From: Prevotella sp.
Lineage (GTDB): Bacteria; Bacteroidota; Bacteroidia; Bacteroidales; Bacteroidaceae
DNA length: 64,000 bases
Direction: 5' to 3'
Assembly (NCBI GenBank): GCA_017554145.1
Contig: JAFZIZ010000008.1
Coordinates: 62,001 to 126,000, forward strand
Part shown: piece by piece, positions 2,172 to 21,926 of the stretch
Layout: every line of letters starts with the position of its first letter
How positions within the stretch are numbered: the stretch's first letter is position 1
Made by a program: the position numbers and the translations under genes
Notes under the pieces: model-generated
The model's database searches: none
Seen by the model: the letters and a program-made list of their open reading frames with translations, nothing else
What the model was told of the DNA's origin: nothing

Positions 2172-3899
2172 ATGAAAGACTTCAGATTTATACAGGTTGC
2201 TTTTGCATCCATCATAAGTATGACTACGATTGCACAAGAAAATAACACCGTGACACTCCAACTGATAGAAACCAGTGATGTGCATGGCGCTTTTTTTCCT
2301 TATAATTTTATCGAGCGTCAATCAATGAAAGGTACGATGGCTCGTGTAAGTTCCTATATTTCAAAACAAAGGAAAGAATACGGCAATAACCTTATTCTCT
2401 TAGACAATGGCGATATCCTTCAAGGACAACCAACATGTTATTATACTAACTATATAAAAACTGAGCTTCCCAACGTTGCTGCTGAAGTTGTAAATTACTT
2501 AAAATATGATGCACAAATATTTGGAAATCACGACATTGAGACAGGTCATACGGTATATGATAAATGGATTAAGGAAGTGAATTGTCCGATGTTAGCAGCT
2601 AACGTTATCAACACAAAAACAAACCTTCCTTATTGTACCCCTTATATCATATTAGAGCGCGAAGGCGTTAGGGTGGCAGTTCTCGGATTACTTACTCCTG
2701 CTATCCCTAATTGGTTACATCAGAACCTATGGACGGGTATGCGTTTTGAAGAAATGGTAGGCAGTGCCCGTAAATGGATGAGAGTTCTGCAAGAAAAAGA
2801 GAAGGCTGATGTAATAATCGGCCTTTTCCACAGTGGTTGGGACGGTGGTATCGCGACACTACACTATGATGAAGATGCTACCAAGAAAATTGCTGAAGAA
2901 GTAAACGGCTTTGACGTCATCTTCTACGGACATGATCATACGGAAAGAGTTGAAACATTGGATAATGGAGTCGTCTGTCTGGATCCGTCATGTAATGCTC
3001 TAAAAGTTGCTCAGACAACTCTTACTTTAAAAAAGGAAAACAGTCACTGGAACATTATTGGAAAAAAAGCGGAACTTGTAGATGTTACCTCTGAACCCAT
3101 AGATGAAATATTTATGAGTCATTTCCAATCCCAGATAGATAGTGTAAGAGCATATATTGATCGTCAAATCGGATTATTCAAGAAGTCTATTTGTTCTTTT
3201 GACTCATTCTTTGGTCCTGCACCGTTTACAGATTATATTCATGAGTTACAATTGGAGATGACTCATGCAGATGTGTCGTTTAATGCTCCATTGACCTATA
3301 ATTCCAAGATTCAGGCAGGACCTGTCTATATTAGCGACATGTTTAAACTGTATCGTTACGAGAATCAAATATACGTTCTTCGTATGACAGGTGAGGAAAT
3401 CCGTAAGCATTTGGAAATGAGCTATGATCAGTGGGTGAATACGATGCACTCACCTGATGATCATATCATGTTGATGTCGTTAGAAACAGGGAAAGATCAG
3501 CAACGTATGGGTTTCAAGAATCTCACTTTCAATTTCGACTCTGCTGTTGGTATTGACTATGAAGTAGATGTAACAAAACCTAATGGAGAGAAAGTACATA
3601 TCCTTCAATTCTCCGATGGTCGTCCTTTTGATGAGCATGCGTGGTACAGAGTTACCATGAACAGTTATCGTGGTAATGGCGGAGGAGAACTATTGACTCG
3701 TGGAGCAGGTATTCCCTTAGACTCAATTCCTGGACGTATAGAATATATGAGTGAACGTAATCAGCGCTATTATCTAACGCATAAGATTGAAAAGGAAGGT
3801 GTTGTCGAGGCAAAATCATATAATAACTGGAGATTTGTACCAGAGGCTTGGACGAAGCCTGCTATAGAAAGAGATCGAAAAATAATATTTGGTAAATGA
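2172..3899 (+). CDS. Periplasmic 5'-nucleotidase/UshA-like metallophosphatase
   Basis: The 575-residue two-domain protein has a signal peptide (about residues 1-21, ending TTIAQ). The metallophosphatase domain shows the metal-ligand motifs in order: SDVHG, NGDILQG, GNHDIE, FHSGW and GHDH. The C-terminal 5'-nucleotidase domain is marked by NSYRGNGGGELL near residue 500. The family includes UshA and CpdB, which hydrolyse nucleotides, UDP-sugars or 2',3'-cyclic nucleotides in the periplasm; the exact substrate cannot be read from sequence. It overlaps nudC by 4 nt (ATGA), so extracellular nucleotide salvage and NAD(H) pyrophosphatase would be translationally coupled. Confidence 0.85.
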   Translation: MKDFRFIQVAFASIISMTTIAQENNTVTLQLIETSDVHGAFFPYNFIERQSMKGTMARVSSYISKQRKEYGNNLILLDNGDILQGQPTCYYTNYIKTELPNVAAEVVNYLKYDAQIFGNHDIETGHTVYDKWIKEVNCPMLAANVINTKTNLPYCTPYIILEREGVRVAVLGLLTPAIPNWLHQNLWTGMRFEEMVGSARKWMRVLQEKEKADVIIGLFHSGWDGGIATLHYDEDATKKIAEEVNGFDVIFYGHDHTERVETLDNGVVCLDPSCNALKVAQTTLTLKKENSHWNIIGKKAELVDVTSEPIDEIFMSHFQSQIDSVRAYIDRQIGLFKKSICSFDSFFGPAPFTDYIHELQLEMTHADVSFNAPLTYNSKIQAGPVYISDMFKLYRYENQIYVLRMTGEEIRKHLEMSYDQWVNTMHSPDDHIMLMSLETGKDQQRMGFKNLTFNFDSAVGIDYEVDVTKPNGEKVHILQFSDGRPFDEHAWYRVTMNSYRGNGGGELLTRGAGIPLDSIPGRIEYMSERNQRYYLTHKIEKEGVVEAKSYNNWRFVPEAWTKPAIERDRKIIFGK

Positions 3900-13966: not shown

Positions 13967-14659
13967 TTATTTTTTGAGTTTCTTGTAAAAGTCTCGAAGA
14001 ACCCCTTGATTCACTCCCCTACCCGCTAATTTATCGAGTTCACGGCGAGCAACTTCGTTTCTACCTAAACGGATTAAGACATCTATATAAGAAAGCCGGT
14101 AATCTGTATGATCAGGTTCTCGTTTAATGACCTCTTCCCAATCATAGAGTGCTGTATCATATCGTTGCATGTCTGTTTCTAAAGAAGCACGTGCCACATA
14201 ACCAGCTACTGAATCTGGATGCTGTTCTACTACTATATTCAGCAGGTCAAGTGCATCATTACGTTTTCCCATCAACTGATATACATACGACAGACCAAGA
14301 CGAGCCTCCAGATGTGTAGGCACCTTCAAGAGAATATCGTTATAGTCGTTTTTGGCTAAACTATACTGACGTGTGTGTGTATAGGCATAGGCACGATAGA
14401 ACAATGCCGTCAGATTATTTTCATCGTGGCGTAGAATTGTCTTATATTCATCAATGGCGTATTCCCACTGTTGTAACTCCAAATTGATGGCGGCTTTACG
14501 AAGATGTAAGTCCGTACTATAAGGAGAAGTGGCTATCTTCTGGTTGATTACATTCAAAGAGTCACGCCACTGCTCGTTGGTCTGAGCTTGCATGCCAACA
14601 GTCAAAAGCCAACAGCCAATCGCCAGTATTATGCTTTTTTGATATAGTCTACTATCCAT
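13967..14659 (-). CDS. Tetratricopeptide-repeat protein with signal peptide
   Basis: The 230-residue protein has a signal peptide ([15 protein letters not shown] at about residues 12-26) and then TPR units, for example [21 protein letters not shown] and [23 protein letters not shown] domains mediate protein contacts; no function can be assigned. It is the last gene of the leu operon. Its start lies 31 nt inside leuB. The hydrophobic core of the signal peptide is encoded by five 7-nt repeats (14594-14628) that begin right at the leuB stop. A start at 14593 (MQAQTNEQW) would place the repeats in the spacer but leave no export signal, so I keep the longer form. Confidence 0.75.
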
Positions 14660-15690
14660 GCTCCAACTTCCTTTGTTCCATATTTTGCACCACCTTCAAC
14701 TTGAATCTCTGGAGTACGCACATTGGCATCAAGAGATGCATTGACAGCCTCACGAATCAAAGCACCCTCCTTGTTGAGTCCGAAGTGTTCCAGCAGCATG
14801 GCGGCAGAGAGAATCTGCGCCAATGGGTTGGCAAGGTTCTGTCCAGCTGCCTGAGGCCATGAACCATGAACAGGCTCGAAGAGTGGAGTATGTTCTCCCA
14901 ATGAGGATGATGGCTGCAATCCCATAGAACCTGTTATACAAGATGTCTCATCTGTCAGTATATCACCAAAGGTGTTCTCTGTTACGATAACATCAAAGTA
15001 ACGAGGCTCTGTCAGTACACGCATGGAAGCGTTATCAATAAACATATAGTCCGTATTCACTTCAGGATATTGTGGCTCCATTTCTTTGGCAATCTGTCGC
15101 CACAAACGACTTGAAGCAAGCACATTCGCTTTATCTACCACTGTGAGGTGTTTATTGCGTTTCATCGCCATCTCAAAGGCAACCTTCAGGATACGCTCAA
15201 TCTCAGGACGAGTATAGATATCCGTATCGTAAGCCTTGTCGTTATCCTGATATTTCTCTCCGAAATACATACCTCCTGTCAGTTCACGGATAACCACAAA
15301 ATCGGCTCCCTTCAACAATTCATCTTTCAAAGGACTCTTGTGTAACAAACAGTCGAAAGTTGCTACAGGACGGATGTTCGCATACAAGCCGAGTTTTTTA
15401 CGCATAGCCAATAAGCCTTGTTCTGGACGAACCTTTGACGTTGGATCATTGTCATATTTCAAATCACCGACTGCAGCAAACAACACGGCATCAGCATTCA
15501 TACAGATATCATGAGTGGCGTCAGGATAAGGATCTCCGCAGACATCAATGGCATGAGCACCACAGATAGCCTCCGTATATTCAAACGTATGACTGCATTT
15601 CTCAGCAATAGCATTGAGTACAGCCACTCCCTGTTTCATGATTTCGGGTCCTATTCCATCGCCCGCAAGGATTGCAATCTTTAATTTCAT
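14629..15690 (-). CDS. leuB: 3-isopropylmalate dehydrogenase
   Basis: LeuB oxidises and decarboxylates 3-isopropylmalate to 2-oxoisocaproate with NAD+; many LeuB enzymes also take the methyl analogue made in the citramalate pathway. The 353-residue length is standard. Visible motifs are [11 protein letters not shown] at the N-terminus, [26 protein letters not shown], the dinucleotide/substrate region [20 protein letters not shown] (20 residues), and [20 protein letters not shown]. It lies 11 nt after cimA and overlaps the TPR gene. With cimA and leuCD in the same operon, one enzyme set could serve both leucine and 2-oxobutyrate formation. Confidence 0.96.
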
Positions 15691-15701: not shown

Positions 15702-17285
15702 TTATTTCGTTAAATCACTTTCAATAATATTCAGCATCTTGAAAGTAGCTTTGATAGCAGCTTCCGTCTGGTCGGCATCCAAGCCACGAGTACGAAGAAT
15801 ACCATCATTATAGTTCCATGAGATGACTGCCTGAACCAATGCATCCGTTCGTCCACCTGGTGGAATAGATACCTGATAGTTGGCCAATGTAGGGAATGTG
15901 CGATCAAGGTATTTCTTATAGATATGTCGAAGGGCCTTCACGAAAGCATCGTACTGACCATCACCTACTGCGCTGCTTTCATACTGCTGACCGTTGATTT
16001 CAACTTTGATATTGGCACCAGGCTTCAGTCCGTAAGCTGTTGATACAACATAACTGATAAGTTTGACTTTATCCTCCGAGCCATCGTGTTTCAACACATC
16101 GCTGACAATATAAGGAAGATCCTCTTGAGTCACAATCTCTTTCTTGTCACCCAGTTCTGTGATACGTTCCGTTACACGACGTGTCTGCTCAGGAGTCAGT
16201 TCAAGACCAAGTTCTTCTAAGTTCTTGGCAATATTGGCCTTTCCGCTATTCTTACCTAATGCATATTCCCTCTTACGTCCGAAACGTTCTGGAATGAGTT
16301 CGTTATAATAGAGTTTGTCCTTCGTATCACCGTCAGCATGAACGCCAGCCACCTGTGTAAACACATTCTCACCAACGATAGGTTGATTGGGGGCCACAGA
16401 GATGCCACTGAAACTCTCAACCATACGCGAGAGGTCGTTCAACTGGCTCTCCACAATATTTGTCTTGGCATGGAACTGATCTTTCAAGATGGCTTGTACA
16501 GAAGCCAGGGGAGCATTACCACAACGCTCGCCCAGTCCATTGACTGTAACATGCAGTCCACGAGCACCACTGAGCACAGCAGCCAAAGAGTTTGATACAG
16601 CCAAGTCGTAGTCGTTGTGGGCGTGGAAATCGAAGTGAACATCAGGATAACGTTTCAGCATCTTTCTGAAATACTCGATAACCTGAAGAGGGTTCATCAC
16701 ACCCAGTGTATCGGGCAGCATGAAGCGCTTAATGGCTATTGGCTTTTGGCTATTAGCTGTTAGCACATCCATCAACTGATAAACATACTCCAACGAATCT
16801 TTCATACCATTCGACCAATCTTCTAAATACAAGTTGACGCTGATGCCTCGCTCGGCGGCATAGGCCACTTCACGCTGGATGTCGCTGATATGTTCTTCGG
16901 GAGTCTTGTGTAGTTGCAGCGTACAGTGTTTCAGTGAACCTTTAGCTAACAGGTTCAGCACACGACCTCCACACTCGTTGATCCAATCAATAGACTTCCC
17001 TCCGTCAACAAATCCCAAGACCTCTACCCTATCCAAACGTCCAATCTGTTGGGCATAGCGACATATTTTGGTCACTGCCTCACGCTCACCTTCAGAGACA
17101 CGTGCCGAGGCGACCTCGATGCGGTCAACATTCAGGTCGTAGAGTAGTTTACGTGCCATGACCACCTTCTCATGAGGCAGGAACGAAACGCCATTGGTCT
17201 GTTCACCATCACGCAGCGTCGAGTCCATGATCTCGACGAATGGTGGAATGCGCTGATAGGAATTTACTTGTTCTGCTGTTCCCAT
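15702..17285 (-). CDS. cimA: Probable (R)-citramalate synthase (LeuA paralogue)
   Basis: The 527-residue HMGL-type aldolase has [15 protein letters not shown] (about residues 20-34), the metal-binding [27 protein letters not shown] and a C-terminal LeuA-type regulatory domain ([12 protein letters not shown]). It differs from the operon's true LeuA ([24 protein letters not shown]). From memory it is closer to the Leptospira citramalate synthase, with shared stretches such as [19 protein letters not shown] and [18 protein letters not shown]. CimA condenses pyruvate and acetyl-CoA to citramalate for isoleucine. Ile codons in the operon leader support this. A loop near residue 175 ([11 protein letters not shown]) is encoded by five 7-nt repeats (16730-16764). 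The start overlaps leuD by 22 nt. Confidence 0.78.
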
Positions 17286-17860
17286 TCTTCTATCTTATCT
17301 TTATTCTGTAATAGGAAATCGATATCATCCAGTCCGTTCACCAGACAATGTTTCTTATAACTATTGATTTCAAATTGCTCCTGTCTCCCTGTCGCCTTAT
17401 TCGTGACAGTTTGATGAGGCAGGTCGACTTCAACCAGCGTTTTCGGATTATCCTGAATACTCTGAAATAATTCTTTCAGGAAATCCTCCGAGACAACTAC
17501 TGGCAACACGAAATTGTTCAGTTCATTGTTCTTGTGGATATCGGCAAAGAACGAACTGATAACCACACGGAAACCATAACCGGCAATTGCCCATGCAGCA
17601 TGCTCACGACTACTGCCAGACCCAAAGTTCTTACCTGCAACCAAGATGCAACCAGAATAGGTAGGATTGTTCAGCACAAAATCCTTATTCACAGTTCCGT
17701 CTGTATGGTAACGCCAATCACGGAAGAGGTTATCACCAAAGAAGCTCTCCTCACGCGTCGTTGCTTTCAGAAAACGGGCAGGAATAATCTGGTCTGTATC
17801 CACATTCTCTAAAGGAAGGGGCACACAAGTGGATGTAATGATGTTGAATTTTTGCTTCAT
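17264..17860 (-). CDS. leuD: 3-isopropylmalate dehydratase small subunit
   Basis: LeuD is the swivel domain of isopropylmalate isomerase and pairs with LeuC. The 198-residue length fits bacterial LeuD. The N-terminal [20 protein letters not shown] and the central [13 protein letters not shown] motif are diagnostic. The same LeuCD complex converts citramalate in organisms with CimA. Overlaps: 4 nt with leuC upstream and 22 nt with cimA downstream, so all these genes are translationally coupled. Confidence 0.96.
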
Positions 17861-19233
17861 AAGAGTGTTCTTGGATCAGTGATTATTCCTGTGACTGCTG
17901 CTGCGGCAGCAACAAGTGGTGAACAGAGAATAGTACGAGAGCCAGGTCCTTGACGACCTTCAAAGTTACGATTTGAGGTCGAGACGGCATATTTGCCTGC
18001 AGGAACCTTGTCATCATTCATCGCCAAACAAGCAGAGCAGCCTGGTTGACGAATCTCAAAACCAGATGTTTCGAAAATAGTGTCTAGGCCCTCTTCGTGA
18101 ATCTGCTGACGGACAGCCCATGAACCTGGTACTAACCAAGCTATGACGCTATCTGCCTTCTTACGACCTTTCACAATAGAAGCAAAGGCACGGAAGTCCT
18201 CAATACGTCCATTCGTGCAGGCGCCCAGGAATACATAGTCTATTTTCTTACCCAATAGGCATTCACCAGCTTTGAATCCCATATAGTTCAATGCTTTTTC
18301 AAAGCCTGCCCCACTCTTTGTAGGAATCGCCTCCGTGATACCAATTCCCATTCCTGGATTAGTACCATAAGTGATGCGTGGTTCAATATCCTTGGCGTCG
18401 AAGGTCAGTTCTTTATCGAATACAGCATTATCACCACTCTTCAAGGTATTCCAATAGGCTAAAGCTTTGTCCCAATCATCTCCTTTGGGAGCATATTCTC
18501 TACCTTTTATATATTCAAAGGTCACTTCATCAGGAGCGATAAATCCTCCACGGGCCCCCATCTCAATAGAGAGGTTACAGAGTGTCAGTCGTCCTTCCAT
18601 CGAGAGGTTTCTAACAACATCACCAGCATACTCCACAAAATAACCTGTAGCACCAGAGGTCGTCAACTGACTCATCAGATAGAGCGCAACATCCTTTGCT
18701 GTCACACCTTTTCCTAATATGCCATTGATATTGATGCGCATGGATTTTGGTTTCTGCTGGAGAATACACTGTGAGGCCATCACCATCTCTACCTCAGACG
18801 TACCAATACCAAAGGCGACAGCCCCCATCGCCCCATGTGTTGAAGTATGGGAGTCACCACATACAATGGTCATTCCTGGCAAAGAGAGTCCCTTCTCTGG
18901 TCCTACCACATGGATAATACCATTGTCTTTTGAGTACATCCCATAGTGGTTCAACCCGAAGTCCTTGGCATTCTGCGCCAAGGTTGCAACCTGCTTGGCA
19001 GATACAGGGTCCTCGATGGGTTTGTCCTGATCGTGCGTTGGAGTATTATGGTCGGGCATACAGTATATCTGTTCAGGACGGAAACACTTCAACCCACGTG
19101 CCCTCATACCGTCAAACGCCTGAGGTGAAGTTACCTCATGACAATACAGGCGGTCGATATAGAGTTGTGTGGGACCATCCTTTACCTGCTGCACCACATG
19201 TTTATCCCATATCTTGTCAAATAACGTATTCAT
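17857..19233 (-). CDS. leuC: 3-isopropylmalate dehydratase large subunit (4Fe-4S aconitase family)
   Basis: LeuC carries the catalytic 4Fe-4S cluster that isomerises 2- to 3-isopropylmalate. The 458-residue protein begins [14 protein letters not shown] and has [15 protein letters not shown], the cluster ligand [13 protein letters not shown], and the [10 protein letters not shown] segment that supplies the other two cysteines. The GxxSxGTSEV-type stretch reads [14 protein letters not shown]. It overlaps leuA by 4 nt and leuD by 4 nt. Confidence 0.96.
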
Positions 19234-20726
19234 TTCTTGAACTTATTGATACAGTCAATATATGCCTCTACAGAAGCAGTAACGATATCAGTATTGGCTC
19301 CGAAACCATAGTACATACCACCGTCGTATTCCACTTGCATGTGTACCTTACCCACATCGTCTGAACCCTTTGAGATAGCCTGAATGGTAAACTCCTTCAG
19401 CGTCATCTTTTTCATGATGATCTTCTTCAGCGCCTTGATGGCAGCATCGACAGGACCATTACCCGATGCGGCTGCCTCAAACTTCTGACCACTGATGTCC
19501 AGTCCGATAGAAGCCACACTCTTTACACCCTTACCAGAAGTGACCTGCAGGAAGTCGAGACGTACAGCATGTGCCTCGGCCGTATCGGCACCAGCCAACA
19601 TCAATACGTCAGCATCCGTTACATCCTTCTTTTGGTCAGCCAACTGCAGGAACTTCTCGTATATCTTGTCGAGTTTCTCCTCGCTGACGTCCACACCATT
19701 TACCATCAAACGATACTTCAGGGCTGCACGTCCACTGCGTGCTGTCAGTACGATGCTGTTATCATCTATACCCACATCCTTGGGATCCATAATCTCGTAA
19801 GTATGCACATCCTTCAATACGCCGTCTTGATGGATACCACTGGAGTGCGCAAAGGCATTGCGACCGACAATCGCTTTATTAGGCTGCACAGGCATATTCA
19901 TCAGACTTGATACCATTCGACTCGTTGGATAAATCTTCGTCGTATTGATATTCGTCTCGATACCCAATCCTTTATGACATTTCAGTATCATGGCAATCTC
20001 TTCGAGTGAGGTATTACCAGCACGCTCTCCAATACCGTTGACGGTTACTTCCACCTGTCTGGCACCAGCCATCACACCATTGAAGGTGTTTGCCGTTGCC
20101 ATACCAAGGTCGTTATGACAATGAGTAGAGATGATTGCCTTATCGATACCATCTACATGCTCCTTCAAGTATTTGATTTTCTCGAAATACTCCTGAGGCA
20201 GACAATAACCTGTTGTGTCGGGAATATTGACCACAGTGGCACCAGCCTTGATGACGGCTTCTACCACCTGCGCCAGATATTCATTATCCGTACGACCAGC
20301 ATCTTCACAATAGAACTCTACATCATCCACAAACTTCTTGGCGTATTTCACAGCTTCCACACCTTGTTCCAGAATCTTTTCACGCGTAGAATTGAATTTT
20401 AACTGAATATGCTCGTCGCTCGTTCCAATACCTGTATGGATACGTTTACGCTTGGCATACTGCAACGCTTCTGCTGCAACGTCAATGTCATGCTGGACAG
20501 CACGTGTCAGTGCACAAATAGTAGGCCATGTAACGGCCTTCGAAATCTCAATCACACTGTTAAAGTCGCCAGGAGAACTGACGGGGAATCCTGCTTCAAT
20601 CACGTCTACGCCCAACTGCTCCAGTGCCTTTGCCACCTGAATCTTCTCAATCGTGTTCAGCTGACATCCTGGCACCTGTTCACCGTCGCGCAGTGTCGTG
20701 TCGAAAATAAACAATCTGTCACTCAT
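19230..20726 (-). CDS. leuA: 2-isopropylmalate synthase
   Basis: LeuA condenses 2-oxoisovalerate with acetyl-CoA, the first committed step of leucine synthesis. The 498-residue protein has [16 protein letters not shown] (about residues 8-23), [12 protein letters not shown] with the metal-binding histidines, [14 protein letters not shown], and a C-terminal regulatory domain (from about 390) that normally binds leucine for feedback inhibition. It is the first gene of the operon. About 200 nt of leader separates it from its promoter, with a leader peptide and terminator in between. Just upstream of the ATG lie four 7-nt repeats (20733-20760). Confidence 0.96.
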
Positions 20727-20732
20727 ATAACT

Positions 20733-20760
20733 TTTAATCTTTAACCTTTAATCTTTATCT
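20733..20760 (-). repeat. Four 7-nt repeats before leuA
   Basis: The plus strand reads TTTAATC, TTTAACC, TTTAATC, TTTATCT in direct tandem, ending 7 nt before the leuA start codon. Similar heptads occur at 14594, 16730, 21934, 34220, 36714 and 48524. Confidence 0.75.
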
Positions 20761-20767
20761 ATTAACT

Positions 20768-20803
20768 AAAAAAGCCTCTCTACACCCGGAAGTGAGAAAG
20801 GCT
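20768..20803 (-). terminator. Attenuator terminator in the leu/cimA leader
   Basis: On the minus strand AGCCTTTC (20796-20803) pairs with GAGAGGCT (20773-20780), one G-U, followed by TTTTTT. It lies 41 nt before the leuA start, so transcription would stop before the structural genes. Its left arm and loop contain TCACTTCCGG (20786-20795), the perfect complement of CCGGAAGTGA at 20852-20861. Confidence 0.85.
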
Positions 20804-20861
20804 CGTTCATATTTAATTTTTATCTTTATCTTTAATTTTCTGAATACCTCATCACTTCCGG
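20786..20861 (-). promoter_or_regulatory. Antiterminator pair of the leu/cimA attenuator
   Basis: CCGGAAGTGA (20852-20861) and TCACTTCCGG (20786-20795), minus strand, are perfect 10-nt complements. Pairing can continue after one mismatch through GAGG with CCTT (two G-U), which would occupy the left arm of the terminator. The two structures therefore exclude each other. Confidence 0.8.
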
Positions 20862-20917
20862 CTACTTTTACGCAGTCGAATAATAATAATGTTGTTAAGT
20901 AGGTTCAGATTCTTCAT
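20852..20917 (-). CDS. Leader peptide of the leu/cimA operon, 21 residues
   Basis: The short frame reads MKNLNLLNNIIIIRLRKSSR plus a final K, then TGA. It holds four Leu codons (CTG, CTA, CTT, CTG) and four consecutive ATT (Ile) codons. The ATG is about 18 nt after the -7 box. The stop codon is part of CCGGAAGTGA (20852-20861), the 5' arm of the predicted antiterminator. A ribosome reaching the stop would cover that arm and let the terminator at 20768-20803 form. A ribosome stalled at Leu or Ile codons would leave it free to pair with TCACTTCCGG. This is the classical attenuation design, and the choice of codons matches an operon making both leucine and, through cimA, isoleucine precursors. 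Confidence 0.85.
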   Translation of the reverse strand: MKNLNLLNNIIIIRLRKSSRK

Positions 20918-20935
20918 ATCTTTCTAATTTCGCTG

Positions 20936-20967
20936 CAAAATTACTACTTTTCAAATGAACAGCCAAA
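20936..20967 (-). promoter_or_regulatory. Promoter of the leu/cimA operon
   Basis: On the minus strand TTTG (20964-20967), exactly 20 nt, TAATTTTG (20936-20943), then CAG. A full-consensus Bacteroidetes promoter. Confidence 0.85.
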
Positions 20968-21005
20968 CAATTCGTAAGTTTTTTGATTGAAAACGTAAAT
21001 AATTG

Positions 21006-21926
21006 TTACTTTGAGCCGATATAAAGGAATACCATACCCAAAAGAACCAATGCCAGATCGATGGCTTTTGAACGCAGATTCTTCTCATGGAAGAAGGCTG
21101 CTCCAAACAGGAAACTGACAATAACGGAACCACGACGAATCATCGAAACAATACTGATCATCGCGTCAGGCATCGACAGAGAATAGAAATACATGAAGTC
21201 GGCAGTAGAAAGAAATACACTCACTCCGATAATCGACCAATGCCAGTGGAATGGTGTCGTCTTGTCGTGATGGGGATACCATAGTAACAATAGCATAGCC
21301 AGCATCATACCACATTGGTAGATGGTATACCACGACTGCACCATCATCTTGTCAAGACCGACTCCCCCCTTCTCTACAGGTGCCATCAAAAATTTGTCGT
21401 AGAGTCCACTGATAGCACCAAAGGCAGCAGCCCCTACTATCATCCATATCCAATGGTTATGCTTGAAGTCTATACCCTCTTTCTTTCCGCTGTGACTCAG
21501 CATCATAAACGAGAGGATGGCGAGTAGCACACCAATCCATTGCCATACGTTGAGTCGTTCGCCAAAGACCAACAAGGCTCCTACCAACACCATCACAGGA
21601 CGTGTGGCATTAATCGGTCCGACGATGGTTAGCGGCAGATGTTTCATTCCGAAATAGCCAAGCAGCCAACTGCTCAGTACGATAAGTGCTTTCAGCAGGA
21701 TGTATTTATGCATATCCCATCCGCCTGATGCCACATGAACGAGTGTTCCGTCAAGCAAGGTTGTCTGTCCACTCAGCACGATGAATGGCAGGAATATAAG
21801 AGAGGAAAATAAGGTGTTCAGAAACAATACGGGGATGACGGCATTCTCCTTCAATGCCTGTTTCTTAAAGGAATCATAGCAGCCTAACAATGCTGCCGAC
21901 ATAAAAGCCAATATTAACCAAGTCAT
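21006..21926 (-). CDS. EamA/DMT-superfamily transporter
   Basis: The 306-residue integral membrane protein has about ten hydrophobic segments in two halves, the duplicated EamA layout: the first from MTWLILAFMSAALLG to about 140, the second from WIWMIVGAAAFGAISG on. Many DMT members export amino acids or metabolites, but the substrate cannot be read here. It follows truA by 29 nt on the same strand, and the spacer is made of 7-nt TTTAATC-like repeats. Its stop is 38 nt before the -33 box of the leu promoter, so a role in amino-acid export is possible but rests on position alone. Confidence 0.75.
   Translation of the reverse strand: MTWLILAFMSAALLGCYDSFKKQALKENAVIPVLFLNTLFSSLIFLPFIVLSGQTTLLDGTLVHVASGGWDMHKYILLKALIVLSSWLLGYFGMKHLPLTIVGPINATRPVMVLVGALLVFGERLNVWQWIGVLLAILSFMMLSHSGKKEGIDFKHNHWIWMIVGAAAFGAISGLYDKFLMAPVEKGGVGLDKMMVQSWYTIYQCGMMLAMLLLLWYPHHDKTTPFHWHWSIIGVSVFLSTADFMYFYSLSMPDAMISIVSMIRRGSVIVSFLFGAAFFHEKNLRSKAIDLALVLLGMVFLYIGSK

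Follow-up and report, generated by a model that had tools for sequence, protein, structure and literature searches.

A putative ribosome-mediated attenuator with leucine and isoleucine control codons upstream of the leu/cimA operon in Prevotella and other Bacteroidales

How is an operon controlled that joins the leucine genes to a probable citramalate synthase gene, and which amino acids does its leader sense? The question is raised by a window of 64,000 nucleotides (nt), the whole stretch of DNA analysed here (contig JAFZIZ010000008.1), from a Prevotella sp. genome of 2,797,331 bases in 38 contigs whose close relatives among named records are rumen Prevotella and Xylanibacter. Its minus strand carries leuA (2-isopropylmalate synthase, 19230–20726), predicted to be the first gene under leader control, followed by leuC (17857–19233), leuD (17264–17860), a probable cimA ((R)-citramalate synthase, 15702–17285) and leuB (14629–15690). 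The cimA identity is probable, not certain, because its best model, NF042433 CimA, scores 622.6 bits, under the cut-off of 950, with the second-best model at 354.9. A preliminary description of the sequence upstream of leuA had proposed leader-peptide attenuation of this operon, a reading that is supported here by covariation of the stems and by control codons that follow operon content. We consider it very likely that the leader controls transcription by ribosome-mediated attenuation and responds jointly to charged tRNA-Leu and tRNA-Ile.

The leader, on the minus strand throughout, starts from a promoter (20936–20967) that had been called full-consensus and does read TTTG (20967–20964), a 20-nt spacer and TAATTTTG (20943–20936), which places it with Bacteroidota-type promoters. 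A generic scan of the window returned no promoters and no terminators; the scanner's models, sigma-70 boxes and loops of 3–8, do not suit this leader, with its Bacteroidota-type promoter. An open reading frame (ORF) of 21 codons (20852–20917) follows, with its ATG at 20917–20915 and its TGA at 20854–20852; read to the base, the peptide MKNLNLLNNIIIIRLRKSSRK has 4 Leu and 4 Ile codons, the latter as four consecutive ATT, just as had been claimed. These control codons stop where segment 1 starts (CGACTGC, 20872–20878, immediately 3′ of the ATT run), and segment 1 has as its partner the start of segment 2 (GTAGCCGGAAGTGATGAGG, 20847–20865), which includes the stop codon of the peptide. Segment 3 (20786–20804) comprises the terminator's left arm, which starts at 20804, and the 3′ arm of the antiterminator, TCACTTCCGG (20795–20786), and segment 4 (20768–20785) comprises the right arm of the terminator and a T6 run. 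The perfect 10-nt inverted repeat reported earlier was correctly placed: its 5′ arm, CCGGAAGTGA (20861–20852), closes with the final base of the TGA, and TCACTTCCGG follows after 56 nt. Likewise, positions and folds bear out a terminator hairpin, GAGCCTTTCTC, whose right arm GAGAGGC (20780–20774) runs into T6 (20773–20768) and whose left arm the antiterminator would occupy. Segment 1, which the preliminary description had not named, completes a scheme of three alternative stems from four segments, namely a protector (1:2), an antiterminator (2:3) and a terminator (3:4 with T6).

These parts suggest a mechanism in which, with leucine and isoleucine plentiful, the leading ribosome would reach the stop codon and mask segment 2, so that the 3:4 terminator would form and transcription would end before leuA. 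If either amino acid ran short, the ribosome would stall at the Leu or Ile codons and mask segment 1; segment 2 would then pair with the emerging segment 3, the terminator would be blocked, and leuACD-cimA-leuB would be transcribed. That the peptide is translated, that ribosomes stall on it and that transcription terminates or escapes accordingly is inferred from the arrangement of the sequence.

Folding of the whole window leader gives the 1:2 stem plus the terminator (z −3.45, with equal stability in 0 of 200 shuffles), pieces starting at 20880 or 20863 fold as the antiterminator (z −2.84 and −2.72), and a piece starting at 20853, without segment 2, folds as the terminator (z −2.27). Antiterminator and terminator are mutually exclusive, both using segment 3. 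Models of ribosome position in 145 leaders, in which the stalled ribosome sits at the last suitable Leu or Ile codon, are consistent with a switch between starvation and plenty (these models, the alignment and the valine comparison below omit leaders without an ORF and the mis-assigned L120, L124 and L144). Before segment 4 is made, the predicted median probability of the antiterminator is 0.92 in the stalled state and 0.01 with the ribosome at the stop codon, and stalling is computed to shift the fold to the antiterminator in 140 of the 145. The models leave the untranslated state ambiguous: with the ribosome absent, the antiterminator at this stage still has a median of 0.79, and superattenuation without translation is therefore not predicted. 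Once segment 4 is included, the equilibrium models give the terminator in 142/145 leaders without a ribosome and in 144/145 with the ribosome at the stop codon, and stalling tips the balance to the antiterminator in only 56/145; the window leader itself, when stalled, flips cleanly (terminator 0.003, antiterminator 0.99).

Is the arrangement conserved among relatives? As the preliminary description had anticipated, Leu and Ile codons are retained while the peptide drifts, and both the terminator and the 10-bp stem show covariation. For the alignment, 113 leaders were thinned to 80. In these, 90.2% of cells are paired in the protector stem, 90.8% in the antiterminator and 91.9% in the terminator, with covariation scores of 0.330, 0.122 and 0.210 against 0.207, 0.095 and 0.153 in shuffles, respectively. 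For each stem, none of 500 shuffles attains the score, which is taken over sequences that are related and not independent and which drops when the partners are slid. Pairs with double changes number 6 in the antiterminator, no better than slid controls (up to 7), and 4 in the protector stem, a count reached by 93 of 500 shuffles; segment 3, shared by two stems, hardly varies. RNAalifold, unaided, chose the antiterminator. In the window (20804–20786) and in relatives, segment 3 carries CCTTTCTCACTTCC, which is conserved beyond the needs of pairing, and CCTTTCTCAC recurs in many of the ilvD leaders described below.

The distribution was charted in 179 leuA upstream regions from the genus and family (80 + 30 + 29 + 40; 161 unique), a sample and not every genome with leuA. 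The annotation finds a terminator and then its best upstream partner, and under cut-offs chosen once the scores were seen, 119 of the 161 unique regions pass, 9 are weak and 33 have no called terminator. Inspection by eye adds 8 of the regions without a called terminator and 5 of the weak ones, so that about 132/161 carry the element; it is absent from 28/161. A TAnnTTTG box lies upstream of the leader in 116 of the 119 passing relatives, 115 of the 116 leaders that have an ORF place its stop codon no more than 15 nt from where segment 2 ends, and the peptides of 116 relatives are 16.9% Ile and 15.1% Leu. Of 149 leader ATGs, only 11 have Shine-Dalgarno-like tetramers in the 20 nt upstream. At one leuA (L119), the promoter box leads almost directly into a bare hairpin, TTTCACTTCCGAAGTGGGAAA, with a T run and no leader ORF, possibly a decayed attenuator.

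Further searches extended the element to 33 of 69 loci that pass with an ORF, 16/40 in the family and 17/29 in the order, one of the order-search loci (L274) coming from a family genome that L244 also represents. Across other Bacteroidales families, arm sequences diverge widely yet still pair (L272, L276, L290 and L291). Among leuA upstream regions from 29 genomes of the phylum outside Bacteroidales none passes and 3 are weak, which is no proof of absence because leuA may not lead its operon there. A covariance model, R1, matched 56 of 100 genus genomes with 57 hits in all; 56 of these lie immediately upstream of leuA and the remaining one upstream of a lone cimA (G047), and the 22 genomes without a LeuA match had no hit. 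In 151 family genomes it gave 82 matches, placed by coordinates before leuA (73), ilvD (7), an acetolactate synthase gene (1) and leuC (1). An IS110-type transposase gene (PF01548; L329, 1130–1786) separates the attenuator from leuA in one of the 73, in genome G173, and in G204 an attenuator (L322, about 3658–3782) lies within a cluster, between ilvD and an acetolactate synthase gene.

The leader peptide looks read, to judge from its frame-specific constraint. Over the ten codons before an Arg-Leu anchor (95 leaders with the anchor, 85 unique segments), pN/pS is 0.74 in frame against 1.10 and 1.50 out of frame, and at position −8 Leu is retained in 65 of the 85 segments through at least 4 different codons. 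Codon choice is skewed: Ile is written ATT, ATC and ATA 430, 22 and 51 times in leaders and 95, 96 and 38 times in ten window genes, and CTA makes up 118 of 448 Leu codons in leaders versus 20 of 293 in the ten genes. Such a choice suits a starvation sensor; avoiding stray pairing may likewise contribute to the preference for ATT.

What seems to us the strongest evidence for an attenuator is that the control codons track the content of the operon. Upstream of the lone cimA of G047, the leader MMQSTSQHIIISIIIRQPIVAGSV has 7 Ile and 0 Leu codons, and no attenuator could be recognised at the leuACDB operon of this genome, where an annotated weak hairpin, overlying the promoter and lacking an ORF, was discounted. 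In the eight genomes of one genus (g14), cimA stands apart from leuA-leuC, on the opposite strand in G240, on another contig in G141 and about 7–8 kb off in the other six; there the leuA leaders have 5–6 Leu and 0–2 Ile codons (7/8 pass the annotation, L245 being weak at 18/200), and cimA has its own TAnnTTTG box in 8/8, with no leader found at any of the eight. Genome G146 has leuA and leuC-leuD-cimA separately, each with an attenuator, the first with 5 Leu and 1 Ile codons and the second with 5 Ile and 2 Leu. Since the G146 leuA leader closely resembles the g14 leaders, these two cases are perhaps one event. A genome from the order search with LeuA but no cimA-like match (G273) has a leader with 0 Ile codons (L281).

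Leaders before ilvD gain valine codons, as in MNLHTSINLAVLHIIRVVVVSSRV, with a mean of 4.67 Val versus 1.16 (30 versus 140 distinct peptides). There are 32 such leaders (30 distinct) among 55 loci, the assignment of L354 and L372 being doubtful; one more candidate (L362) passed the cut and was rejected, having no ORF, lying 192 nt from the gene and resembling coding sequence. At the ilvD of the window genome and of six other genus members, an attenuator was found in 0/7. Codon tracking is imperfect: outside g14, 0–2 Ile codons occur in 10 of 143 leaders, and two of these ten (L168 in G196 and L180 in G211) have cimA close downstream of leuA.

Other amino-acid operons offered further short ORFs. 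Of 8 Bacteroidales genomes from other families, 6 have His-rich ones such as MRFYSRHRVHHHHHHLSG upstream of hisG (L380, L381, L383, L384, L388 and L397), 3 of the 6 passing the terminator/antiterminator test; none of the 10 genus genomes does. L440 has a Thr-rich short ORF, MIRTTEHTAILTTTPWGVQ, some 250 nt upstream of thrA, the sole candidate in 20 thrA loci; no attenuator was found at the thrA of the window genome.

Codons that vary with operon content also bear on the other ways in which this leader might work. A protein or a small molecule could switch the stems, in the manner of a riboswitch or T-box, with the ORF incidental or encoding a small protein of its own, and the marked constancy of CCTTTCTCACTTCC in segment 3 is what one might see in a bound site. 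We think this improbable in view of those codons, of the frame-specific constraint on the ORF and of a stop codon located at segment 2; moreover, Rfam gave no match at gathering over the whole window, T-box and proteobacterial leader families included, and on 20700–21010 searched up to E 10 returned only eukaryotic or unrelated families. Fainter still is the prospect that the peptide controls leuA translation or Rho-dependent termination and not an intrinsic terminator. Ribosome-based translational attenuation does have a precedent in tetQ of Bacteroides, but here a covarying hairpin and T run end upstream of the leuA start, and most called terminators finish between 16 and 117 nt upstream of leuA, so that its start codon is not hidden by the stems. 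The idea that a small ORF and hairpins came together by chance in an AT-rich intergenic region, where single stems of this size do arise, has a negligible claim, already refuted by recurrence of the arrangement with covariation across genera and families.

The Ile codons also support the cimA assignment and suggest a citramalate route to isoleucine in these rumen and gut bacteria, with feedback from the leader. With some reservation, we favour an old Bacteroidales-wide attenuator family, with one scaffold for leu/cimA and ilv (His and perhaps Thr leaders elsewhere) whose codons were rewritten as genes joined or left the operon. The operon break-ups are a natural experiment, an unusually direct evolutionary test of what an attenuator senses. 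Classical attenuation requires a ribosome close behind RNA polymerase, and transcription-translation coupling in Bacteroidota is, to our knowledge, an open point. Such a family, if real, would imply close coupling in a phylum that initiates without strong Shine-Dalgarno sites, and conservation of the leader makes this testable through one leader.

Attenuators of the enterobacterial leu (leuL) and ilv (ilvL, ivbL) operons are well known and share with the Prevotella leader a peptide rich in cognate codons, four segments forming protector, antiterminator and terminator, and a place before branched-chain genes. Unlike them, the Prevotella leader would sense Leu and Ile together, matching a leu operon with a probable cimA, and it has a Bacteroidota promoter, few Shine-Dalgarno-like tetramers and no Rfam match. 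Vitreschak et al. (FEMS, 2004) reportedly predicted attenuators that include some Bacteroidetes/Chlorobi operons, and our literature search yielded no paper that we recognised as reporting leu attenuation for Prevotella or Bacteroides. According to a 2010 paper, no leader-peptide system beyond Proteobacteria and Actinobacteria had been known, ermC aside, before its authors' own case in Firmicutes (PMC2965389). The preliminary description's remark that there is little direct evidence for attenuation in Bacteroidetes is fair, yet the Prevotella leader is not the first in the phylum: a passage on amino-acid operons of Flavobacterium psychrophilum reports strong clues for leader-peptide attenuation (PMC9723704). 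The control proposed there is the same and the phylum is shared; the class is different, and that passage itself gives no operon, peptide or operon-content test. Small ORFs of B. thetaiotaomicron are described as resembling leader peptides (PMC7366714). Bacteroid-trp RNA (RF01692), presented as a cis-regulatory RNA candidate in Bacteroidetes (PMC2864571), is like the Prevotella leader a candidate cis-regulator, at trp genes judging by its name, although its model gives no match to the window. The mechanism proposed for the Prevotella leader is already known; the leader family is new to Rfam, and attenuation in the phylum had been hinted at, in the passage on F. psychrophilum (PMC9723704).
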